This document shows positions 8,901-33,846 of a DNA stretch of 33,846 nucleotides, in pieces. This stretch comes from a virus, in IMG/VR virus record IMGVR_UViG_3300048042_000021, positions 1 to 33,846 of that record; one strand, written 5' to 3'. The notes below the pieces were generated by a model. That model was not told the origin of the DNA, did no database searches, and saw only the letters and a list, made by a program, of their open reading frames with translations. A program made the position numbers and the translations under genes. Position 1 is the stretch's first letter. Every line of letters begins with the position of its first letter.

Positions 8901-9298
8901 TCATATACGGTTTGATTAGTGACAATCTGTTGGATTTTCAAAAATCCAACAGATGTTAAACAACGCTGTGGTTGATAATTTAACATTTGAGCTAGTCTAA
9001 ATACACTTTCACGACGCTGTGCCGTATCTAAGAAATTTTCATGAGTATTCAAATCCATTCTTAGTGCTAAACTGGTACCAACATAACTCAAAAGTTCAAT
9101 GATAGAAACAAATTCACTACTCTCTATCCAGTCGTTAAAATCCTCGGGGTATGAAATCTGTATGTATGTTATTAACGCCGTACGTATAGTATTGAAATCA
9201 TATGCATTAAAATTAACGGTTGTAAATGCAGTATATAGAATTTGCCAATCTTCCGCACAAAAAAGTTGTTTTTGTCTTTGCTGAGCCGTTACAGTCAT
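5918..9298 (-). CDS. Baseplate wedge protein, gp6-like (J-like family)
   Basis: 1126 aa. In T4, gp6 forms the inner ring of the baseplate and joins wedges around the hub. The N-terminal 120 residues carry the family pattern: a region around [15 protein letters not shown], then [20 protein letters not shown] and [19 protein letters not shown], equivalent to the conserved 'LLAY...E.FL.TA..R..V...A...GY' stretch of gp6 and Mu J-like proteins. The length is well above T4 gp6 (660 aa); the extra part is Asn/Thr/Ser-rich. The start ATG at 9298 forms an ATGA overlap with the stop of the upstream GIY-YIG gene, and the GAGGG ribosome site lies in that gene's last codons. Position directly after gp25 and before a giant structural gene agrees with the T4 order 25-6-7. 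Family assignment is by pattern recognition, fairly secure; function of the extra length is unknown. Confidence 0.82.
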
Positions 9299-10203
9299 AT
9301 TATGCCCTCTTTAGTTTTATTTCTTTTAGTTTCTGAAATTTTACGTTTTATTTCATCTGACATAGGAGGTCTCTTTTTGGCTGCAATAGACAATTTTTCT
9401 CTATGTTCATTTGACATATTCATAGCACGTTCTGACATCTTTTTTCGAGTTTCTTCTGTTATTGGATCACGTTTAATAATTATTCCTTGTTCTCGTAAAT
9501 TATCATAAAAATTGCTAGTTGCATCAGATAATTTTTGCCTAGTTTCTCCTGATACTATTTTTCCTTTTAGAGCATTAGATATTTTTTTACGAGATTCTTC
9601 TGATAAAGGATGCTCATTGAATCTTTTTATTTGTGATTCAGACATTTTATTTCTAGACTCTTCAGAGAAGGCCCATCCATTGGCATGTCTGTTCTGTTGA
9701 GCTAAAGTCATTCTTGCTCGAACTTCTGGAGATCGTTTCTGACCTTTTGGTCGACGTAATTGTGCTTCAGAATATCGCTTTCGTGTTTCTTCAGATATGG
9801 GTGGTCGATTTTGTTGTCCTTTAGATATATTTTTTCTATATTCATCTGATCTAGGTGGTCGATTTCTAACAGCTTCGGCGATTCTTCTTTTAGTTTCTTC
9901 GGTATGTTTTAATCCAGTTGCGCCGTCACCACCATCTAATTTGTTTAATAAAATTCCTGCATCACTTCTTTTACCCCACCAACGTATCATTCTTCGTTCT
10001 AATGCTAACGCTCCAATTTCAGTTAAACCTGATTCTAATATAACAATATATTGTTTATCTTTTGGTATAGGAACATTATTATGTTTATCACTGAACATTC
10101 TTTTTCCTTTACCTTTACCAATATAATAAGGAGTACCTGCTTTAGCAGTTATTGAATCTTTATTTCTGATATATGCATATACATAAAATTCATTAATTAT
10201 CAT
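9295..10203 (-). CDS. GIY-YIG homing endonuclease with many NUMOD3-type repeats, inserted in the baseplate operon
   Basis: 302 aa. The GIY-YIG nuclease module is at residues 7-75: YVYAYIRN, then [11 protein letters not shown] (Tyr27, Gly29, Arg35) and a downstream Glu in ALALERRMI. From about residue 95 the protein is a run of about nine short repeats of the type 'S-E-E-T/S-R-K-K-I/M-S', the NUMOD3 DNA-binding pattern of phage homing endonucleases. It lies between gp25 and gp6, genes that are normally neighbours, with 9 nt to the gp25 stop and a 4-nt ATGA overlap with the gp6 start. An AAGG 7 nt before the ATG serves as ribosome site. There is no intron or intein around it, so this is a free-standing element, of the kind T4 calls seg genes. 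Its target is probably the homologous gp25-gp6 junction in related phages; that is inference. Confidence 0.88.
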
Positions 10204-16612: not shown

Positions 16613-16640
16613 TTGACAATACATAGTTTTGTCATATATT
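16613..16640 (+). promoter_or_regulatory. Early (sigma70-type) promoter for gp55
   Basis: TTGACA at 16613-16618, 16-nt spacer, TATATT at 16635-16640. The predicted transcript start is about 30 nt before the chosen ATG at 16677. It diverges from the late promoter at 16572-16579. Confidence 0.72.
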
Positions 16641-16676
16641 ATAGTATTTTGCATGGATTTATCAAAAAGGATCATA

Positions 16677-18512
16677 ATGAACAAAAATTTACCTACTAAA
16701 ATAAAATATTTGACAAATAAAGACTTATTGGAAGAGATTCATTTAAGCAAATCGACTTATTGTGAATTTATTGATCCTAAATACAGTAACTATGATATAA
16801 TAGTTGATAATTTAGGTAAAGTGACACAAGATTTATTAAATGATGTTCGCAAGCGTAAAGTAACACAAGAAACAATACGACGCAAAAAAGAAATGATATC
16901 AAAAGGTATTAAAAATCCAGTAATTAATTTTACATTAGATGATATACCTCAAGAAAATATAGTAATCAGACTAATGACTTTTGACCATATCCCTATTAAT
17001 GAGGAGCGAATTCATAAAGCTAAGACCGAAGCAGAAAAGCATATAAAATGTAATTTTCCTCCTTTTCAACATTTTATAATAAAAGAAGGTGAATTCTATA
17101 TTGTAGGAAAAAGTCATTGGCAAGGCGGTATAGAAAACGGATGGTTTAATATTGAGCACGGAAAAATGACAAATAGATTAGCTCTTATGTTTATGAAATT
17201 AGTAGAAAGATACGGTCATAGAGGGAATTGGAGAGGGTATTGTGTAGATGAAACCACCGAAGCATTAACCCAACGCGGTTGGCTAGGAATTGATGATATA
17301 AACGAGACAGATATTATTTTATCATATGATGAAGGTAATCTGAAATGGTCTAAGATTAAATCTATATTTAGAGATCATTTTGACGGATTAATGCATAATC
17401 TCACTGTTACGGGTATGGATGCATTAATTACACCAAATCATAAATTAGTAACCGGTCGAGGACTTATTGAAGCTGAATATCTATTAGAATCAGATAAAGT
17501 CATTCTGATGGGTAATGAAATTCAGTCAGATTCGATTGAGATATATAATAATGACATTGTAGAATTATTAGGTTGGATAGTAACAGAAGGGTGTTATGAA
17601 TGGAATGAAGAACATAAAATAAAACGAATCACAATATATCAAAATCCGGGAGATAGTGCAGATAGAATCAGAAGCCGTTTAACTAACTTAAATTTTAAAT
17701 TCAGTGAATCACTACGATTGAACAATATATGTTTTGCTATATCACGTCCGGATTCTAGAAAAATTATAGAAATATTACCTACAAAAAACCTAAATATGAA
17801 TTTTCTACTTTCATTAACTGCTAATCAACGAAATATGTTAGTTAACACTATGATAGATGGTGACGGATGGAGAGTAGGTAACTATCGTCGATATACTCAA
17901 AAAAATAAAGAATGTGTAGATATGTTTCAAATTTTATGCACCATGTCTGGTATTAAAACCAATAGCCATTATATACAAAATCATAAATCATTTGGAAAAC
18001 TTACTAGTTACTATAATATTAATTTGTTTTCAAAGAGAAGAAATAATACTAAAGTAGAATGCATAGACTTTCATGGAGGTAAAAGAAATGGTAAAGGTCT
18101 CATTGGACGTGGAAAAATAACTCATCCAAATGAGCCAACTACTTATTACAATGGAATGGTATGGTGTCCTGAAACTGAATATGGGTGTTTCATTGCCAGA
18201 AGAAATGGAAAAGTGTACTTAACTGGAAATACATATCTAGACGAAATGAAAAATCAAGCATTATTACAGCTGAGTCAAATAGGTTTACAATTTGATGAGA
18301 GTAGAAGTGCTCAACCAAATCCATTCTCATATTATACACAAGTATTAGCAAATAGTTTTACAAGAGTATTAAACATAGAAAAGAAAAATCAAAATATTCG
18401 AGATGATTTATTAACTATGCACGGGGCAAACCCATCGTATACAAGGACAACAGACAATGAGATTGCAGCTAAAAAGTTAGCAGATACAGTCGTAAAACCG
18501 CCAGAAGCGTAA
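16677..18512 (+). CDS. 55: Late-transcription sigma factor gp55, interrupted by an intein
   Basis: 611 aa precursor; 281 aa after splicing. gp55 binds host RNA polymerase, replaces the host sigma factor and reads TATAAATA late promoters. The extein reads through the splice joint as GHRGNWRGY|TYLDEMKNQALLQ, then PFSYYTQVLANSFTRVLN and EKKNQNIRDDLL, the sigma region 2 pattern of T4-type gp55. The N-extein (188 aa) is long compared with T4 gp55 (185 aa in all). The ATG at 16677 is chosen because AAAGGA lies 5 nt upstream; the frame is open to a TTG at 16629, but that falls inside the promoter, and the ATG at 16653 has no ribosome site. Downstream come gp47 and gp46, as in T4. No partner gp33 is seen in this window. 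Confidence 0.9.
   Translation: MNKNLPTKIKYLTNKDLLEEIHLSKSTYCEFIDPKYSNYDIIVDNLGKVTQDLLNDVRKRKVTQETIRRKKEMISKGIKNPVINFTLDDIPQENIVIRLMTFDHIPINEERIHKAKTEAEKHIKCNFPPFQHFIIKEGEFYIVGKSHWQGGIENGWFNIEHGKMTNRLALMFMKLVERYGHRGNWRGYCVDETTEALTQRGWLGIDDINETDIILSYDEGNLKWSKIKSIFRDHFDGLMHNLTVTGMDALITPNHKLVTGRGLIEAEYLLESDKVILMGNEIQSDSIEIYNNDIVELLGWIVTEGCYEWNEEHKIKRITIYQNPGDSADRIRSRLTNLNFKFSESLRLNNICFAISRPDSRKIIEILPTKNLNMNFLLSLTANQRNMLVNTMIDGDGWRVGNYRRYTQKNKECVDMFQILCTMSGIKTNSHYIQNHKSFGKLTSYYNINLFSKRRNNTKVECIDFHGGKRNGKGLIGRGKITHPNEPTTYYNGMVWCPETEYGCFIARRNGKVYLTGNTYLDEMKNQALLQLSQIGLQFDESRSAQPNPFSYYTQVLANSFTRVLNIEKKNQNIRDDLLTMHGANPSYTRTTDNEIAAKKLADTVVKPPEA
17241..18230 (+). mobile_element. Intein with LAGLIDADG endonuclease inside gp55
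   Basis: 330 aa in frame, from Cys1 (CVDETTEALTQRGWLGI, block A) to a terminal Asn (NGKVYLTGN) followed by Thr of the extein. Block B is seen as LTVTGMDALITPNHKLVTG, with the TPNH motif. The two LAGLIDADG helices are LLGWIVTEGCYEW and MLVNTMIDGDGWRV, so the homing nuclease looks complete, with an acidic residue in each. The C-terminal block is YGCFIARRNGKVYLTGN; the penultimate residue is Gly rather than His, a variant common in phage inteins. Splicing would join Tyr to Thr in the conserved GY/TYLDEM of sigma region 2. The frame is intact on both sides. Confidence 0.93.
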
Positions 18513-22430: not shown

Positions 22431-23510
22431 TTAAACGGGTTTCAATTTACATTTATCAAAATGATATCTATACATATTATTAGATCCACCAATTTTACCA
22501 CAGTGTGGACATTCTATTTTTGATTTTTTAACACCTTTCATGCCTGCAGACATATTCTTTTTAATTTCATCTGTTACAATTCTACCTTTACCTCCTTTTG
22601 ATATATTATCTTTCCATTGCTGTTTTTCTTCTTCGGTCATTTTATAATGGCATGGTTTACCATACATTCCATTTTCTTCACCTTTGTGGGCCATTTTAGA
22701 TCTAACTATATCCATTTCTTCTTTGGTTAACTTATCAAATGGTTTTTTACCATATCTCGGATTATTCTCACCAGACATACGCAAAGATATTTGTTCTATT
22801 AACTCTTTATATTCTTCTGACGTTAAATTATCAAATGGTTTTTTACCATATCTCGGAGATAGGTTTCCGATTCTTCCGTACATAGGATTATTTTCTCCTC
22901 TAAAATAGTCATCTAAATATTGCTGATATTCTTCTGGTGTTTTATTTCGTATAGTCGAATTATTATTACCAAATCGATATTTTATTTTATATTGTTCTTT
23001 TTCTTCGGGTGTCATACCATGTTCCCAACAAAAATTTTCATTCGGGTATATGTCTTTTATTAATGCAAATATTCTAACTGCTTCTTCGTCTATAGTCTCA
23101 TGTGGCGGTAAAAATTTAATTGGTGGTATTACCTTATTATAATATTTTCTAATCGAATCAGATAATTTAACTCGTAATGCATCTTCTACTATTAATTTTT
23201 CAACTTCTGCATAGGTTAGAGATGCCTTAGTAGCATGTAATGATTCAATAAAAAATTGAAATCTATCTTTTCCAAATTCTTTAATAAGTTTGTTTATTTC
23301 ATCTGATGAACTTGTGTATTTTTTCCAGTTAGATTCTTTCGTCTTCCATGCTCTATTTTTTCTTCCAGTAATAGCTTTACTAGTTTTTGTAAAAAATTGT
23401 TTTTTACCTATATATTCCCTATTAGTAACCGTGTCAATTATCCTATATACAAATCCAAACCAATTATTTATATTAAAATCGTTAGGGTATATCCAATGAC
23501 CATTATCCAT
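22431..23510 (-). CDS. GIY-YIG homing endonuclease with C-terminal zinc finger
   Basis: 359 aa. The nuclease module is at the N-terminus: FGFVYRIID (18-26) and REYIGKKQFF (31-40). The middle holds three copies of a 'G-E-N-N/G-P/G-x-Y-G-K-K-P-F-D-x-L-T-x-E-E' repeat, a NUMOD3-type DNA-binding pattern. The C-terminus is a zinc finger with Cys334, Cys337, His350 and Cys354 (spacing C-x2-C-x12-H-x3-C), the same spacing as in the HNH protein at 29116-29967. The gene is convergent with gp46, 6 nt apart. It has its own late promoter (23541-23548) and an AGGAATTATT ribosome site, so it should be expressed late. It is free-standing; the target is unknown. Confidence 0.88.
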   Translation of the reverse strand: MDNGHWIYPNDFNINNWFGFVYRIIDTVTNREYIGKKQFFTKTSKAITGRKNRAWKTKESNWKKYTSSSDEINKLIKEFGKDRFQFFIESLHATKASLTYAEVEKLIVEDALRVKLSDSIRKYYNKVIPPIKFLPPHETIDEEAVRIFALIKDIYPNENFCWEHGMTPEEKEQYKIKYRFGNNNSTIRNKTPEEYQQYLDDYFRGENNPMYGRIGNLSPRYGKKPFDNLTSEEYKELIEQISLRMSGENNPRYGKKPFDKLTKEEMDIVRSKMAHKGEENGMYGKPCHYKMTEEEKQQWKDNISKGGKGRIVTDEIKKNMSAGMKGVKKSKIECPHCGKIGGSNNMYRYHFDKCKLKPV

Positions 23511-24761: not shown

Positions 24762-24764
24762 TTC

Positions 24765-24814
24765 CTTACAGAAACCATCATCATCCCTTACAGAAACCAT
24801 CATCATCCCTTACA
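24765..24814 (+). repeat. Tandem 22-bp repeat just after the operon
   Basis: Two perfect 22-bp copies (24765-24786 and 24787-24808), each beginning CTTACAGAAACC and ending in CATCATCATCC, plus six bases of a third. The unit is not a multiple of three and lies after the stop codon. Confidence 0.9.
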
Positions 24815-25186
24815 TACTGGTACTGAAATAGTAGTAGCGAATGCGTAATTCTACTGATGCTAGGATTGATAAGATCACACTCATCTAGGGATTCTAATTC
24901 TGTAAAGCCCTAACCAGAAAAATCAGATGAAAGGATTGCAGCATCTTGTATATTGTCTGCAATGCATAGGATCTAGTAATCGAAATGTAGACCTATGTAG
25001 TGTGCCCGTAATGGGCATGACCGGGTATAGAGGTTAATTTCTAAAAGATCGCTTGTGACGAGTGGGTATTTAGGGACTCTGAATACGCCACCTGATAACT
25101 GGAAAAAGGTACCCCGCCAGTTAGTTTTAGGGTGATAATTTCGATGGCTAAAGAGTGAATCAGAAGATTACACATTTTCCAATAAA

Positions 25187-25214
25187 ATAGTATTTCCTTA
25201 AACGGGAATACTAT
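25187..25214. other. 11-bp hairpin, possible terminator for leftward transcripts
   Basis: Stem ATAGTATTTCC (25187-25197) with GGGAATACTAT (25204-25214), loop TTAAAC, one T-G pair on the plus strand. On the minus strand the stem is followed by TTTTATT, so it could end leftward transcripts about 340 nt beyond the tape measure stop. Confidence 0.4.
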
Positions 25215-25282
25215 GACGAGATATGATCAGAATATCACGCCTTTTATAGACGATTTCTGCTACATAAAGATTGAAAACGTAT

Positions 25283-25327
25283 TTAACGTAAATTTATTTA
25301 GAAAATTAACGTAAAGTTATTTAGAAA
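25283..25327 (+). repeat. Direct repeat, two 22-bp copies
   Basis: Copies at 25283-25304 and 25306-25327, separated by one base, share TTAACGTAAA and TTATTTAGAAA and differ at a single base (T or G at the eleventh position). Confidence 0.9.
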
Positions 25328-25334
25328 GAAAATA

Positions 25335-25385
25335 ACAAAGCAATTCATTGAGATGAGCTTGCGATTCGAAAATGAATTGCTTTGT
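25335..25385. repeat. 15-bp perfect inverted repeat (hairpin)
   Basis: ACAAAGCAATTCATT (25335-25349) and AATGAATTGCTTTGT (25371-25385) are exact reverse complements, loop 21 nt. No T-run follows on either strand, so it is not a standard terminator. Confidence 0.9.
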
Positions 25386-25391
25386 AGATGA

Positions 25392-25423
25392 ACATAAACG
25401 GAGTTTATGTTCTCCGTTTATGT
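25392..25423. repeat. 12-bp hairpin with an alternative fold
   Basis: ACATAAACGGAG (25392-25403) pairs with CTCCGTTTATGT (25412-25423). The first arm can instead pair its ACATAAA with TTTATGT at 25404-25410, a 7-bp hairpin with loop CGGAG. The two folds exclude each other. Confidence 0.85.
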
Positions 25424-25553
25424 ATAATCATAATAATAAATTAAGGATACTTCTGACTAAAATTCATTGACTATATTAGGGTTAATCAACTATGCGTCGA
25501 TGGCAGTTTGATAATTGCAAACAAAAACTAAATATTATCTGCGAATAAATTGA

Positions 25554-28500
25554 TTAATAAACACGTCCACTCTGCTTCTTCACTGCATTGACTATATCAC
25601 TTGTAGAACTATTTGTAGTATGACCTAGAGCTTCGAGCTTATAATTTATCATCTGAAGTAATTCTATCATTGACGCATTTGAACTTCTTTGATTATCATA
25701 AAAATCAATTGTTATCTTTTGTAAGTCACTTGGACTCAACAGCTTAGCACCGCCTTTATTAGTTGCAACTGACGGGTTAGCTAGTTCTTGCGCATTTGCA
25801 GCTAAATCTCCCACACTTTTAGCTAGTTCTTCAATCATTGACGATGTGGTAATTTTTCCAGAAAATAAAGTGTCTTGTTTAGAAGTATATAATAAATTTG
25901 ATAGATTGGTTAAGGTATCATTTACTGACGCATCTATTTTGGCTGAGTTCAATGAACTAATCGCACTATTAAATGCAGTACTAAAAGTAGACAATGATGG
26001 CGTTATTTGATTTAATTTATCAGCTATATTAACTGACCCTAAACTATCACCTAATTCTGTAATTTTACTCGCGATAGTCGTTTTACCACTAAACATCCCA
26101 GTCTTAATATCAGTGTATAAAATACCAGCTAAGTTTGTGATTGTTTTAATAATTGCATCGGTATTGATATTAGCACTATTAGCACTTATTAATGAATCCG
26201 TAACAGTTTTAAATGCAGTACTAAACATTGTTAATGCTGGGGTTACTTTAGTTAACGGATCAGTAAGGGTTTCGAATTTTTTAAGTTGATTAACTGAATC
26301 ATCACCCTCTACCTTAGGAGTCTCTACATTTGGTTTTGGTGGTTGTTGACGTTGTTCGTCCTCAGGTGAGGTTTCGCCCAATAAACCACCAAGACCTTTG
26401 ACCATCTTACCTATTGCTGTATGTTCACGGAAATTGTGTACTGCACCTAATACAGCATCAGGTAAGATCTTATTGCCAACAGCACTGATTCCTTCACCTA
26501 TAAATTTGCCTGCTATGACAGCTAATCCTGCTTCTCCAGCAACCTTAGCAACTGTTCCGAGGCCGCCAACCTTGCTAAGCAATCCACCTGCTTTACTTGC
26601 TACACTTGCGGCTTTCTTTTCAGCTTCTGCTATTGCTTTACTTGCTGCTTTCTTTTCAGCTTCTGCTATTGCTTTACTTGCTGCTTTCTTTTCGGCTGCA
26701 CCTTCGACACCTGGCATACTGAAAGGTCTTGGAGATTCTGGACTGCTAAATGGGTTTAGAGAACCTGTAGACTTAATTGGCCTTGACGTTGATTGTGTAT
26801 CTTTTAAAAAGTCTTTAATCCCTTGTGGACGCAATCCCTTAAGAACCACACCACCAGTTAATTTATTTGCTACTGCTAATACTGCGGTTGATACTATTGC
26901 GGTTGTAGCAACTGATTTTAAATTTTCTTGAGTTAGGTTAGATTCTGATCCTGTTTTACCATACATTGCATCTGGATCTTGTTTACGAGTTTTTAAACCA
27001 AATGATATAAGTAACTCATCTATAGCATCTCCTAATGTAGTAAACAAATTAGCCAATGAATCAATTGGATGCGCAAGAGTTGTTAGTATATCTGAGAAAG
27101 CAACTGATACCTTAATAGCACCGTCTGCTAATTTTCCAAGAGCAGGTAGTGCAGGATTTAAGCTCTCTATTAAAAATCGATCAAATGAATTTTTTAAAGT
27201 ATTCTCTGCATCTATAGCTTTGTTTTGTGTATTTCGTAATTTAATAGCATCTTCATTTGCATCAGATGCCATTTTTGCACGTTCTCTTGCTTCAAGTTGC
27301 TCTCTAGTTAATCGTTTACCAGCTTCTTCATCACCTCTAGCAAGTCGTTTATTAACTTCTTCTTGAATTCTAGCTCCCGTTTCGTTTACATTCTGGGTAT
27401 CTTGCATAAATTTTATAGCTTTTCTAGCGGCATCACCAGCTATACCTTGTATCATCGCTTGCGAATGTAAACTTGCTGCGTATTCTTTAGCTTGTGGTGA
27501 ATTAGTTAGTTTACCTATACGTTCTTGATCAGCTTCAACTAGATCTGCAGCGTTAGCAGCGTTAGATTTCAAATCTATTGACAATTGGTCAAATGCCGGA
27601 GACAACCCATCTACACGAGTCATTAACAGTTGAAGACCACTATCTAATTTAGCTATGCCTGTACCCGCATATATACCAGTGAGAATTTTTTGTGCGTCGT
27701 CGGCAGAATCACCTAATGCACTTAAACTCTTTACATTCCGCCTAATAGCATCTTGCTCATTGGCAGATAAATTAGATATGGCTACGTTCATATCTAAATC
27801 CTTAGCTCTATCTTTTGCCTCCTTTTCTAAAGTTTTTCTATTTTTTCCAGTAATCGAAGATATCATATTCAATTCTTGAATATATTGTGCGGTGCCATCG
27901 GTTAGTTGTTTAGTAGTTTTACCTGATAGACCACCAGTTACCCTTAACATATCTGTAAATTCAAGTATAGAATCAATTGCATCCTGATTGGTTAATTGGA
28001 GAGCCCCGGTCTGTTCGTTTAATAATTTAAATGATTTACCTAGTCTGGTAACTTTATCAGTTCCTAAAAACGCTATATCTGCGCTATACTCTGTAAAAGA
28101 AGATACTAAATTATCCAATGATATTCCGAGGTCAGATGCTGTTTGCGTCATTCCTGCCAGACCATCAGAGAACCGAACACCTGAATCAAATAGTTTATAA
28201 TATTCGTTATTCAATTTCGTGACAATTTGATATGTTTCAAATACCCCGCCTGCTAATAACAATAACGGACCTGCTACGGTAAGTATACCTCCTAATAGAT
28301 CTTCAGATGCTGCACCTAATTTAGATAAACTGGCGGCCGCCGTACCTGAATGTTTAGCTAACATTCCAATTATACCAACGTCTCCGATATCTGATATTGC
28401 GCCATGAAGGCCTTTTAATGCACCACGTAAACTACCGTCTACTTTATCGAATCCATTTTTTACACCGAGGTTTAAGTCTTTAAATGCATCAGTATCGTTT

Positions 28501-28706
28501 TTACGTTTCTTTTTGTTTTGTTTAGCTTCGTCAAGAGCAATATCTAATTCTTTTTTTGCAAACTTGTTTGTTAATAATTTAAGATAATCATTTGCTTCTG
28601 TATCTTTTTCGAGAATTTCTTTGAGCGTAGTTTCCCTAGCCCATTTAGCTCCGGTGCTTTGCTCTTCTAGAATTATAACTTTTTGTGGTGGTACAACTGC
28701 TGCCAT
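25554..28706 (-). CDS. Tail tape measure protein
   Basis: 1050 aa. It sets tail length and is ejected ahead of the DNA. Evidence is the composition and layout: a charged helical N-terminus (KDTEANDYLKLLTNKFAKK), then a hydrophobic Gly/Ala/Leu-rich segment at about 140-165 (LLGGILTVAGPLLLLAGG), long helical stretches rich in Ala, Lys and Asp, an Ala/Glu/Lys tandem repeat, more hydrophobic Gly/Ala segments around 720-740, and a C-terminus of Ser/Thr/Ala repeats. It follows the gp26-like/frameshift pair, the standard position of tail chaperones. By the usual rule of about 0.15 nm per residue the tail would be near 150 nm. The start at 28706 lies 30 nt after a CATAAATA late promoter. No lysozyme or peptidase domain was recognised. 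Confidence 0.85.
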   Translation of the reverse strand: MAAVVPPQKVIILEEQSTGAKWARETTLKEILEKDTEANDYLKLLTNKFAKKELDIALDEAKQNKKKRKNDTDAFKDLNLGVKNGFDKVDGSLRGALKGLHGAISDIGDVGIIGMLAKHSGTAAASLSKLGAASEDLLGGILTVAGPLLLLAGGVFETYQIVTKLNNEYYKLFDSGVRFSDGLAGMTQTASDLGISLDNLVSSFTEYSADIAFLGTDKVTRLGKSFKLLNEQTGALQLTNQDAIDSILEFTDMLRVTGGLSGKTTKQLTDGTAQYIQELNMISSITGKNRKTLEKEAKDRAKDLDMNVAISNLSANEQDAIRRNVKSLSALGDSADDAQKILTGIYAGTGIAKLDSGLQLLMTRVDGLSPAFDQLSIDLKSNAANAADLVEADQERIGKLTNSPQAKEYAASLHSQAMIQGIAGDAARKAIKFMQDTQNVNETGARIQEEVNKRLARGDEEAGKRLTREQLEARERAKMASDANEDAIKLRNTQNKAIDAENTLKNSFDRFLIESLNPALPALGKLADGAIKVSVAFSDILTTLAHPIDSLANLFTTLGDAIDELLISFGLKTRKQDPDAMYGKTGSESNLTQENLKSVATTAIVSTAVLAVANKLTGGVVLKGLRPQGIKDFLKDTQSTSRPIKSTGSLNPFSSPESPRPFSMPGVEGAAEKKAASKAIAEAEKKAASKAIAEAEKKAASVASKAGGLLSKVGGLGTVAKVAGEAGLAVIAGKFIGEGISAVGNKILPDAVLGAVHNFREHTAIGKMVKGLGGLLGETSPEDEQRQQPPKPNVETPKVEGDDSVNQLKKFETLTDPLTKVTPALTMFSTAFKTVTDSLISANSANINTDAIIKTITNLAGILYTDIKTGMFSGKTTIASKITELGDSLGSVNIADKLNQITPSLSTFSTAFNSAISSLNSAKIDASVNDTLTNLSNLLYTSKQDTLFSGKITTSSMIEELAKSVGDLAANAQELANPSVATNKGGAKLLSPSDLQKITIDFYDNQRSSNASMIELLQMINYKLEALGHTTNSSTSDIVNAVKKQSGRVY
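26611..26697 (-). repeat. 36-bp in-frame tandem repeat in the tape measure gene
   Basis: Two exact 36-bp copies (26611-26646, 26647-26682) and a 15-bp partial third that differs at one base. They encode 12-residue units of the type EAEKKAASKAIA. Confidence 0.92.
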
Positions 28707-28736
28707 GACAATTTAAACTTTCAAAATATGTACATT

Positions 28737-28744
28737 TATTTATG
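28737..28744 (-). promoter_or_regulatory. Late promoter for the tape measure gene
   Basis: The minus strand reads CATAAATA, ending 30 nt before the start codon at 28706. It shares 14 bases with the gp25 promoter. Confidence 0.72.
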
Positions 28745-28758
28745 ACTGAAAATTTCGG

Positions 28759-28786
28759 TTGACTTTTCCTCCAAAGGTGCTATTAT
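28759..28786 (+). promoter_or_regulatory. Sigma70-type promoter with extended -10
   Basis: TTGACT (28759-28764), 16-nt spacer, TATTAT (28781-28786) preceded by TGC, an extended -10. It overlaps the ATG at 28785, which argues for the start at 28812. Confidence 0.6.
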
Positions 28787-28811
28787 GCTTGAAGCAATTA
28801 AGGAACATCAC

Positions 28812-29111
28812 ATGCCTAGAGGCAGCGTATTATTGGGACTGGGATTATTGTTTGGTCCAAAGCGGATGGTTTTATGGACCATGGTGTTGTGGGCGTTCGT
28901 GACCATGGTATTACCATTCATTAATCCTTGGATAATTGCGTCTAATGAAAGCGATACTATCGAATCAATGAAAGCTAATGGGTATCATTGTGCTCATTAT
29001 GAAGATGGATATGGGTATAAGGTAATATGGAATAAGGTTACAGAAGCAAATGATGATGTACAATATCCAACACGTGAATTAATCACTAAATGTGCAGATG
29101 GATCAGATTGA
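28812..29111 (+). CDS. Small membrane protein of unknown function
   Basis: 99 aa from the ATG at 28812, which has AAGGA 7 nt upstream. An ATG nine codons earlier (28785) also has an AAGG, but it lies within the promoter -10, so I prefer the shorter form. Residues about 4-45 form one or two membrane segments (SVLLGLGLLFG, then MVLWTMVLWAFVTMVLPFIN), split by a basic PKR. The rest is a soluble domain with two Cys (HCAHYEDGYGYKVIW and ITKC), so a disulfide outside the membrane is possible. It stands alone on the plus strand inside a leftward tail operon, with its own promoter, which fits an early membrane function such as superinfection control or antiholin. Neither can be shown from the sequence. 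Confidence 0.72.
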   Translation: MPRGSVLLGLGLLFGPKRMVLWTMVLWAFVTMVLPFINPWIIASNESDTIESMKANGYHCAHYEDGYGYKVIWNKVTEANDDVQYPTRELITKCADGSD

Positions 29112-29115
29112 ATAA

Positions 29116-29967
29116 TTAGTGATTAATTTCTTCACAAACAATGTTTGATTTTTGTTTGAATTTACAATTATCAAAATGCCATTGGATCATAGCACCACCT
29201 TTACCAATTTTATCACAATGATGACATACATATTCTTGTTGAGATGGGTGTGTTCCATTTGCTACTCGTTCTAATGCGTGTTTTCTAGCTCTTTCAGAGC
29301 CACCATTTTCTTTTAATAAATGATGCGTTCTATTTGCAACTTTCTCATTTGCTAATTGCCTTAGATGCTCAATGTTTTCTTTATTTTGAGATGAATGCCT
29401 ACCTTCTGCTAATAGCTTTAAATTTCTTTCTTTAGACTTCTCACTACCTCCATTTTGTTTTAATGCATGAAATGTACCATTTTTTATTAATTCATGTACC
29501 GGATTTTTATCACCTTGTAAATTATGATCACCTCTAGCAACTCTTTTATTTTGTGCTTGTATCATTTTTTCAATAACTACCGGATTTTGAGATGGATGTC
29601 TACCTTCTGCTAGTAATTTTAATACTCTTTCTCTAGACTTCTCACTGCCACCATTTTGTTTTAATAAGTTATGAGTTCCGTCTGTTGATCTTTTTAAATT
29701 ACTCAATGTTGCTAATCTAGAAATATCTTCTGGTGATTTATTCATTCTAAATGCAATTAAGACGCATGCATACCAATCCATTTGTTCAAAATGAATATCG
29801 TAATGTTCTTGTATAGTAATAGCTTCTAAATTAATTGGATCATTATTTGAATGATTCCCATCTATGTGATGAATTTCATAAGTACGACCTGTTTCATCTA
29901 TAGGTATTTTACCTATATGATTCTCATATATTTTACGATGATTAGTAGTTCTACAATGATTGCACAT
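29116..29967 (-). CDS. HNH homing endonuclease with repeats and C-terminal zinc finger
   Basis: 283 aa. The HNH core is at 30-60: RTYEIHHIDGNHSNN (His33, His34, Asn41/42), DPINLEAIT and EHYDIHF, preceded by a CNHC pair at 2-5. Residues about 95-245 hold three copies of a repeat built around NGGSEKSRERVLKLLAEGR and HPSQN, interspersed with RVARGDHNLQ-like units, likely DNA-binding. The C-terminal zinc finger has Cys248, Cys251, His264, Cys268 with the same spacing as the GIY-YIG protein at 22431-23510. It lies between the tail-chaperone frames and the tape measure gene, normally adjacent. No ribosome site precedes the ATG, and the predicted transcript start is within a base of it, so translation may be leaderless. 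It ends 4 nt from the convergent membrane-protein gene. Confidence 0.87.
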   Translation of the reverse strand: MCNHCRTTNHRKIYENHIGKIPIDETGRTYEIHHIDGNHSNNDPINLEAITIQEHYDIHFEQMDWYACVLIAFRMNKSPEDISRLATLSNLKRSTDGTHNLLKQNGGSEKSRERVLKLLAEGRHPSQNPVVIEKMIQAQNKRVARGDHNLQGDKNPVHELIKNGTFHALKQNGGSEKSKERNLKLLAEGRHSSQNKENIEHLRQLANEKVANRTHHLLKENGGSERARKHALERVANGTHPSQQEYVCHHCDKIGKGGAMIQWHFDNCKFKQKSNIVCEEINH

Positions 29968-29972
29968 TTTGC

Positions 29973-30001
29973 ATTATAGTATATTTTAACTAATTTGTCA
30001 A
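29973..30001 (-). promoter_or_regulatory. Consensus sigma70 promoter for the HNH gene
   Basis: On the minus strand TTGACA (30001-29996), 17-nt spacer, TATAAT (29978-29973): a perfect match in both boxes and in spacing. The -35 overlaps the last codons of the upstream frame. The expected start is 29966-29967, at the A or T of the ATG. Confidence 0.88.
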
Positions 30002-30282
30002 AATAATTTACCACCGGTTTTTGGTGCCATGGCTTCAAAATGTTTTTCTACAACCTTCGACATAATTTTTCGCTGTTTAGCTGTAGTTAAATATGCATCC
30101 GAAAAATTAAGCCCGCCATTCATATAATATACAAGGGTAGCTATTTCTTCTTCAATAATATTTCGATTTTTCTCTAGAATTTCCAACATCTCGGTTATTC
30201 GGATAGGATCTAAGGTCGCGAGGGTTTGGGAAAAAAACTTGATGGATCCAAGTTCAAAGAATCTTTCCAGGTATGATGACAT
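29998..30282 (-). CDS. Tail-assembly chaperone extension (gp51/GT-like position), probably made by -1 frameshift
   Basis: The frame could encode 94 aa from the ATG at 30282, but that ATG lies inside the gp26-like gene, over its second CxxC codons, and has no ribosome site. The frame is -1 relative to the gp26-like frame and meets it at a T7 run (30231-30237). A slip there would fuse 279 residues of the gp26-like protein to the last 77 residues of this frame, beginning SQTLATLDPIRITEMLEIL, a 356-aa product. The part is helical and charged (KNRNIIEEEIATLVYYMNGG, VEKHFEAMAPK), as in known chaperone T extensions. The arrangement, two overlapping frames just before the tape measure gene, is that of lambda G/GT. 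Independent translation of the 94-aa form cannot be excluded. Confidence 0.7.
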   Translation of the reverse strand: MSSYLERFFELGSIKFFSQTLATLDPIRITEMLEILEKNRNIIEEEIATLVYYMNGGLNFSDAYLTTAKQRKIMSKVVEKHFEAMAPKTGGKLF

Positions 30283-31067
30283 TTGTCACATTCGATATCA
30301 ATAGATCGATTGATGCCAATTTCATTTAAAGCATTAACTTTATTAAATATCAAATCTGCCTGGTTTTTAGGGATGTTTACTAGCCACTCTGAAATATCAG
30401 TTGGATTATTAACGGTTGATCCTTGTTTAATTAATCGAATTGATGTTATAGATTTTGATACCAAATCAAATGTTATCCTACTGATTTTCTCTACACTTTT
30501 TTGAAGTACGTCTGCTTTATGAAGTTCATCTAAATTTTTATTATTTGCATCTATTAATTTAAGGAGACGATCTTCCTCAAATTGTTTTTCGACAAAAGAC
30601 CTCCTCATCTCTAAAGTATACGGTTTTATATGTATTTCTAATTCGTTGTTGAGGTTTATTTTTGTGTCAGAATCTTCTATCGCGGTCATAGTTCCTAATA
30701 AATGATCAAGATTGACGTCAAAGGTCATTTCATGATTACATTTATTACAAATCTTACTAATTTCAAAAGTTTTACCTGAAGTTGCTATTTTCATGGCTAA
30801 AAATATTGCTTCGAGATCAGGAACGAGTAATTTTTTAACGTTTTTTACGTCTGGTGCACAACTTTTGATTACCCCCTCGAGAGCTGCACCCGAAAGTAGG
30901 GCATCCGGCGTCGATAACATTATTTCGTCGATCCCATTCAGACCATACACGCCAATTTCACCTGACTCGGGCATATTCATTTCTTCAGTTGTATACCACT
31001 TGTTTAAAGTAGGTAATTTTAAAAATACTGAAGGAATTCGAAAATATTGTTGTAATGGGTTTGCCAT
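30210..31067 (-). CDS. Baseplate hub/tail-assembly protein, gp26-like (T4_baseplate family)
   Basis: 285 aa. The middle follows the gp26-family pattern: a short helix-rich part with ALLSGAALEGVIKSCAP, then VKKLLVPDLEAIFLAMKIAT, the 'D.e.lf..lr..s.G' motif, followed by a CxxC pair (Cys107, Cys110). A second CxxC near the C-terminus (Cys260, Cys263) suggests zinc binding. The region between is charged and helical. In T4, gp26 and gp51 act in hub assembly and are not kept in the virion in quantity. The start at 31067 has TAGGA upstream and lies 26 nt after a GATAAATA late promoter. The frame ends 18 nt after a T7 slippery site that leads into the overlapping 94-codon frame. Confidence 0.75.
   Translation of the reverse strand: MANPLQQYFRIPSVFLKLPTLNKWYTTEEMNMPESGEIGVYGLNGIDEIMLSTPDALLSGAALEGVIKSCAPDVKNVKKLLVPDLEAIFLAMKIATSGKTFEISKICNKCNHEMTFDVNLDHLLGTMTAIEDSDTKINLNNELEIHIKPYTLEMRRSFVEKQFEEDRLLKLIDANNKNLDELHKADVLQKSVEKISRITFDLVSKSITSIRLIKQGSTVNNPTDISEWLVNIPKNQADLIFNKVNALNEIGINRSIDIECDKCHHTWKDSLNLDPSSFFPKPSRP
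30231..30237 (-). promoter_or_regulatory. Slippery heptamer T TTT TTT for -1 frameshift
   Basis: In the gp26-like frame the codons are AGT TTT TTT CCC, so the heptamer is in the X XXY YYZ register. The zero frame stops 18 nt further on (TAG at 30212-30210). No strong downstream stem was seen. Confidence 0.65.
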
Positions 31068-32534: not shown

Positions 32535-33846
32535 TTATACAATTTGATTAGGATTTGTCCATATCCATCTGGCATTGCCACAATCCCATATACGTTCAAA
32601 TCCGGCATTTCGCGCCATCTCATATTCAGTTAAATTTGGATCTAATGCCGGATATTTTTTCAAAAGTTCTTTCTTAGTAAAAAATAATCTATGATACCTT
32701 TTAAATTCTGGATTACATAAACTAAAATACCAATATCCGGCACCAGTATCTTCATATCTAATAAATCCTAAATTAGCAAGATAATTACCTTCACCATATC
32801 TTAAATCTGAATAACTTAAAATACTAATAGGATCAAGGTCTTTTACAAATTTTGAAAATAGTTTACTTGCTATTCCTGGTATATGTGTTAAATCTGTAGA
32901 AAACCTTACCATTTCCCATTCATATTCTATTAGAGGTTTATGTAATTTTCTATGCTTACTAAAACTCATAACTGCCCGTATGTTTTCATTTTTATCAAAT
33001 GCAGCATAATGTATTGAAGCTCTTGCTGATCCACCTAGATGATATTTTTTCAAAAATTCATCAGATGTCATCTGCGTTATTTTTTTAATTACTAATGATC
33101 TGGCACCAACAGATACAGATTGTTTTTTTAACATATGTAACAATCTAGATTCTACAATTTTACGATTTAGTATCCATTCATCTTCAAATATAGATATTAA
33201 TTTTATATTTTGTTCTTTACATTCTATCCATTTATTTCTATGATCAGTAGATTTTGAATACCTCTCACTATGCCAATATAACCCACAATATTCTATACCT
33301 ATTTGTAATGATGGTGAGTATAAATCTAATTCTTTACCACTAGGTAATACTTTTCTAGTTTTAGAAAAGTCATTGAATCCATGTAATGCTAATAAATTAG
33401 CAAGTTGTTTTTCTGGTATTATTTCTGTAGGTAATCGTATACCTAAAATTTTTAAATGTTTTAACACGGTAGTTTCTGATACATTTAATTTAGTAGATAT
33501 TTCTGAAACTGACAATGTATCAAATAATGATTTCATAGAATCATAATCAGTTAAATATCTCCATGTTTCTACACTATAATGTAATTGACTATGATTTGAC
33601 ACACCATATATAGCAAAAGAAGATGCTATCATTTTGCTACGAACGTCTTGGCGTTTACTATGCCAATCTACACCATACTTTATTAAACATTGATTTCTTA
33701 TAGAGTCAATAACTTTAGGATCTTTCATGCTATTATTAATAGTCATATTAAGTTTATGACTTTTAATCTGCCCAGGATTAGTAACATCAATGCCATGCTT
33801 TTCTTGTAGTTTATTTTTTGCTTTTAATAAAGTTTCAGGGTTGGCT
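32535..33846 (-). CDS. Hef-like homing endonuclease, VSR/PD-(D/E)XK type (5' end outside window)
   Basis: The frame is open from 32535 to the right edge. The first ATG inside is at 33746 (403 aa), but about 33 further codons upstream continue the same kind of sequence, so the true start is probably outside. The N-terminal part consists of short modules of the type KYGVDWHSKRQ, IYGVSNHSQ and, before the first ATG, KHGIDVTNPGQ, a repeat common in phage homing nucleases. A helix-turn-helix (SVSEISTKLNVSETTVLKHLK) follows. The nuclease core is GKELDLYSPSLQIGIEYCG, LYWHSE and ISIFEDEW. The C-terminal half (YHLGGSARASIHYAAFD to the end) is the domain found in this family of 'Hef-like' phage proteins. 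Flanking genes are unknown. Confidence 0.82.
   Translation of the reverse strand, partial: ANPETLLKAKNKLQEKHGIDVTNPGQIKSHKLNMTINNSMKDPKVIDSIRNQCLIKYGVDWHSKRQDVRSKMIASSFAIYGVSNHSQLHYSVETWRYLTDYDSMKSLFDTLSVSEISTKLNVSETTVLKHLKILGIRLPTEIIPEKQLANLLALHGFNDFSKTRKVLPSGKELDLYSPSLQIGIEYCGLYWHSERYSKSTDHRNKWIECKEQNIKLISIFEDEWILNRKIVESRLLHMLKKQSVSVGARSLVIKKITQMTSDEFLKKYHLGGSARASIHYAAFDKNENIRAVMSFSKHRKLHKPLIEYEWEMVRFSTDLTHIPGIASKLFSKFVKDLDPISILSYSDLRYGEGNYLANLGFIRYEDTGAGYWYFSLCNPEFKRYHRLFFTKKELLKKYPALDPNLTEYEMARNAGFERIWDCGNARWIWTNPNQIV

Follow-up and report, generated by a model that had tools for sequence, protein, structure and literature searches.

Two open reading frames on the minus strand of a 33,846-nucleotide viral contig (the window) overlap at the end of a gp26-like gene, which raises the question of whether they encode separate proteins or are joined by −1 ribosomal frameshifting. 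The zero frame and the second frame share 73 nt (30210-30282) in the −1 register, and a T TTT TTT heptamer in X XXY YYZ phase is separated from the zero-frame stop by 18 nt of sense codons. The run of seven T lies in the context AG[T TTT TTT] CCC, which is read AGT TTT TTT CCC. A slip at this site would join 277 zero-frame residues to 79 residues of the −1 frame, giving a predicted product of 356 aa besides the 285-aa product of the zero frame. The ATG of the second frame is preceded by ATTGATATCGAATGTGACAA, wherein no Shine-Dalgarno sequence is present. A preliminary description of this DNA had claimed the overlap, the phased heptamer and the spacing to the stop, all of which are exact, as well as the two product sizes, which match the computed reading frames, and the missing ribosome site. 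Considered alone, however, the window is weak evidence, because at least one in-phase heptamer of a common type is expected by chance in a 24-codon overlap with a probability of ~8%; it is conservation that makes the evidence strong. As the window is a 33.8-kb fragment, a separate fused copy of the gene may lie elsewhere in the phage genome.

Table 1. Features of the tail assembly chaperone (TAC) locus, its surroundings and related loci. Positions are those of the window unless the locus of a relative (L number) is given.
Feature	Position	Strand	Basis
TAC-N (gp26-like, PF12322), zero frame, 285 aa	30210..31067	-	PF12322, phrog_150, AlphaFold2/BFVD
Slippery heptamer T TTT TTT, X XXY YYZ phase	30231..30237	-	sequence; homologous heptamer in relatives
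Zero-frame stop TAG	30210..30212	-	18 nt of sense codons between heptamer and stop
Second frame, 94 aa, ATG at 30282	30282..29998	-	ORF call
TAC-C (gp51-like) coding region, -1 frame, 79 codons from slip	29998..30237	-	
Predicted frameshift product TAC-NC, 356 aa	29998..31067	-	ORF analysis and arithmetic
Candidate tail tape measure protein, 1050 aa	25554..28706	-	weak homology to large virion gene beside TAC in relatives
HNH homing endonuclease between TAC and tape measure candidate	29116..29967	-	phrog_12324 E 1.4e-39, HNH_3 E 2.2e-10
Homing-endonuclease-like ORFs	9295-10203, 22431-23510, 29116-29967, 32535-33746		
Jumbo-phage RNA copies	L001:7242-7701, L002:7210-7677, L005:8120-8607	+	downstream of TAC
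Jumbo-phage RNA copies	L011:5210-5721, L012:5217-5711, L014:5239-5732, L015:5206-5686	+	downstream of TAC

The zero-frame product, TAC-N, matches PF12322 (T4_baseplate) with an E value of 1.5e-14 and 54.6 bits (curated cut-off 24.5), and phrog_150 with an E value of 1.1e-18. Its AlphaFold2 model has a pLDDT of 92.6, and the BFVD structures matching it are T4-like baseplate hub assembly proteins. A Foldseek search of the PDB returned no convincing fold, and the best VIA-align score (Z 7.9) is restricted to a helical part of the protein; a fold link to solved chaperones is therefore possible but not established. The T4 proteins gp26 and gp51 both match PF12322, and only gp51 also matches phrog_634, the C-domain family. 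Thus, T4 gp26 corresponds to the short form, and T4 gp51 combines the N and C domains in a natural fusion. The genes of the window are assigned to the tail assembly chaperone pair TAC-N/TAC-NC. In the accessible part of the mass-spectrometry list for CBB virions, the TAC-N of that phage (CBB_250) is absent and its neighbor CBB_251 is present, and the PA5oct TAC-N record lacks the mass-spectrometry note that neighboring records carry.

Homologous loci were collected in two surveys. By tblastn against GenBank phages, homologues of TAC-N with 25-37% identity were found in RaK2-like, 121Q-like and PA5oct-like phages, XacN1 and other jumbo phages. The first survey comprised 97 loci, namely the window, 16 GenBank phages (14 jumbo-type, one cyanophage and one Vibrio T4-like phage) and 80 IMG/VR loci that were recovered with an alignment as the query, a scan with the single protein having found only one relative. 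The second, seeded with a cyanophage and a Vibrio T4-like phage, comprised 87 cyanophage or T4-like loci. Every one of the 97 gp26 loci in the first survey has an in-phase heptamer at the corresponding site (TTTTTTC in 88, TTTTTTT in 5 and AAATTTT in 4). In 93 of these loci it is T TTT TT(C/T) at the homologous FF codons, and the remaining four carry a different canonical heptamer, A AAT TTT, in phase at the same place. The second survey yielded T TTT TTC in 87 of 87 loci, such that an in-phase slippery run is kept in 184 of 184 loci overall. This is the retention of run and phase among relatives that the preliminary description had proposed to look for.

Conservation of the heptamer far exceeds what codon usage would produce. 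Given the codon usage of each gene, and with both phenylalanines kept, the probability that the base before FF is always T and the first Phe codon always TTT is ~1e-25 over 38 T-type clusters. The clusters were defined at a 70% identity threshold and treated as independent though they are related, and because they share ancestry this value is the upper limit of how strong the evidence can be. In the rest of these genes, 0.34% of codons carry an in-phase heptamer of a common type.

The product of the −1 frame also behaves as a conserved domain. Between the window and the relative L010, the TAC-C region is 71% identical, and with a dN of 0.22 and saturated dS it is judged to be under purifying selection. 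The AlphaFold2 model of TAC-C is helical (pLDDT 87). Among the families listed for the −1 frame product, there was no match to phrog_634, the T4/cyanophage gp51 C-domain family. A profile comparison of the jumbo-phage C domain with T4/cyanophage gp51 by hhalign gave a weak match (P 0.0015, probability 16.5%) whose alignment holds the motif S..E...M...ER in register, and homology between the two is only suggested by this likeness. In the jumbo genomes examined, the C domain is either unannotated or entered as a hypothetical protein, separate or truncated, and our reading of the locus corrects these annotations.

A rival reading is that TAC-C is a separate protein, translated from a start of its own or through termination-reinitiation at an ATG close to the stop of TAC-N. 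Such an ATG overlaps or adjoins the stop in several relatives (121Q, Atu_ph07 and S-RIM44), and annotators call separate ORFs at the TAC locus in relatives. Moreover, the very distant Burkholderia phage BcepSaruman, which was left out of the 184-locus count, has no heptamer and seems to rely on a separate gene that has a ribosome site. Reinitiation, however, needs neither heptamer nor phase, yet both are kept in every counted locus, and the start codons themselves are often missing. There is no ATG before +45 in 25 of the 38 T-type clusters, and in eight clusters no ATG, GTG or TTG occurs between the upstream −1 stop and +90 nt, which leaves frameshifting as the only plausible route to their C domain. 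The −1 frame is already closed at the position of the window ATG in most relatives. In the window, the ATG that lacks a ribosome site sits 45 nt 5′ of the slip and adds 15 residues beyond the aligned homology; indeed, in searches with the second frame the alignment starts at residue 15-16, which corresponds to the slip and not to the ATG. A usable ribosome site for the second frame, which the preliminary description had named as evidence against frameshifting, is thus seen neither in the window nor, with respect to starts, in these eight clusters, and we regard separate synthesis of TAC-C as very unlikely. A scheme that retains the slip, wherein jumbo phages make TAC-N, frameshifted TAC-NC and free TAC-C by reinitiation where an ATG lies at the stop, with a downstream stem that would tune the ratio and so set tail length, is unlikely.

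Also very unlikely is a shift during transcription through slippage of RNA polymerase on the T run. The seven T of the window would suit this mechanism, but only six are present (TTTTTTC) in 88 of the 97 first-survey sites and in all 87 of the second, and only five in the A AAT TTT clade. In addition, the codon phase is always that expected for tandem tRNA slippage, which slippage by polymerase would not require. That the overlap reflects a sequencing error or gene decay, with the second frame arising by chance, could be entertained for a single contig and a heptamer with the chance probability given above. The probability of this reading is close to nil, since relatives already refute it by preserving the arrangement in 184 loci, along with a C domain under apparent purifying selection.

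The locus therefore very probably holds the TAC gene of a T4-related jumbo myovirus, and this gene yields a short TAC-N and a −1 frameshifted TAC-NC. The heptamer, its codon phase and its retention among relatives are observed; slippage, its efficiency, the ratio of the products and the chaperone function are inferred. Most ribosomes would make TAC-N, and a minority would slip by −1 on T TTT TTT to make TAC-NC, which would thereby gain the helical C domain. If lambda G/GT is a guide, the tape measure protein may be coated by many copies of TAC-N and few of TAC-NC, with tail tube subunits recruited through the C domain.

The lambda G/GT type of reading that had been put forward for this locus fits the evidence, in that the ORFs overlap, the second lies in a shifted frame that lacks a usable start of its own, and a conserved in-phase slippery heptamer is located at the overlap. 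The slippery heptamer of lambda differs from that of the window, and the lambda tail is noncontractile, whereas the window phage has contractile-tail baseplate genes. Like the window, lambda gpG/gpGT has a −1 slip site near the 3′ end of its first ORF, and the minor long form and tape measure connection of lambda (PMC5009743) would have counterparts here in TAC-NC and the candidate tape measure gene. Frameshifting of the G/GT type is well known among long-tailed phages, and the window is a frameshifting jumbo-phage case of the known TAC-N/TAC-NC system. The TAC genes of T4-like phages were identified by Vladimirov et al. 2022 (Vladimirov, Gautam & Davidson, Virology 566:9), as far as this work is described in two later papers (PMC10885494, PMC12846349). 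As cited there, it reports poly-T slippery sites for the TAC-N genes of T4-like phages (PMC12846349), and T4-like phages with two genes instead, a short one and a fused long one (PMC10885494). Hence, the proposal that frameshifting explains how gp26 and gp51 relate is not new, to the extent that these citations convey the 2022 study, and T4 itself does not frameshift. The window and T4 share the PF12322 family and the logic of a short and long pair, but T4 uses separate genes and its gp26 reads TTC TTT at the 3′ end, with no slippery run. The TAC genes of Vandenendeviridae and Andersonviridae, with a GTTTTT motif (PMC12846349), are similar by description, being from myoviruses and having a conserved poly-T −1 site at the 3′ end of TAC-N. 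A −1 frameshift signal is conserved across the sampled jumbo and cyanophage branches, and the separate gp26 and gp51 of T4 are a different solution to the same need.

On average, the RNA beyond the slip has a better fold than control RNA (mean z −1.65 versus −0.38 and −0.29), and the A AAT TTT clade has a downstream stem with two double-compensated pairs. The downstream RNA of the window is not unusually stable (z −0.66), and no consensus RNA structure is supported in its closest clade; the window has no convincing stimulatory structure. By eye, no Shine-Dalgarno-like stimulator was seen in the 25 nt before the slip.

The preliminary description had also placed the frameshift upstream of the tape measure gene. 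This holds for gene order, but the two are not immediate neighbors, being ~1.3 kb apart with the HNH insertion and a plus-strand ORF between them, and the tape measure is a candidate. In RaK2, the annotation of the candidate's homologue notes similarity to a tape measure protein, and the CBB copy of this large virion protein is abundant in virions, with 29 in the peptide column of the table as excerpted. On the basis of such weak homology, the gene may be the tape measure gene. In most of the relatives compared (L001-L006 and L010-L015), TAC and the tape-measure-like gene stand back to back and point away from each other; the window (25554-31067) instead has the latter 3′ of TAC on the same strand, indicating that the module was rearranged.

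Several other genes of the window were noted. At least four homing-endonuclease-like ORFs occur among tail and replication genes in 34 kb, and the N terminus of the one at 22431-23510 also matches an NAD synthetase profile. A late sigma factor ORF (16629-18512, 627 aa) matches sigma-factor profiles at residues 22-208 and 535-616, and its ~320-residue insert, which weakly matches PhoH-like and thymidylate synthase profiles, is possibly an intein.

An unannotated structured RNA of ~460-510 nt was observed 3′ of TAC in 121Q, Munch, XaC1, Eneladusvirus, CBB, GAP32 and Kaldavass, in a region conserved between jumbo phages at the DNA level. Its consensus from seven sequences has 106 base pairs, 36 of which show double compensatory changes; 92.8% of cells are paired, compared with 41-49% when slid (0/500 shuffles). 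Covariance models built from two blocks recover held-out copies and reveal three to five dispersed copies per genome, all of which share a strand within a given record (121Q 4, Munch 5, SNUABM_19 4, CBB 4, GAP32 5, Kaldavass 5, XaC1 5 and RaK2 3, the weakest matches being marginal). The models found no copies in PA5oct or Phosso and no match in the window, and the RNA has no match in Rfam 15. It looks like an undescribed multi-copy large noncoding RNA. The window has a 792-nt region (24762-25553) with no ORFs of at least 90 aa that is matched by neither Rfam nor these models. This region starts with a short tandem repeat (CTTACAGAAACCATCATCATCC), is 95% identical over 589 nt to one other contig (L235) and, on each strand, has a more stable fold than shuffled sequence (z −4.9 and −4.1). 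It is possibly a structured RNA of the window's phage group.
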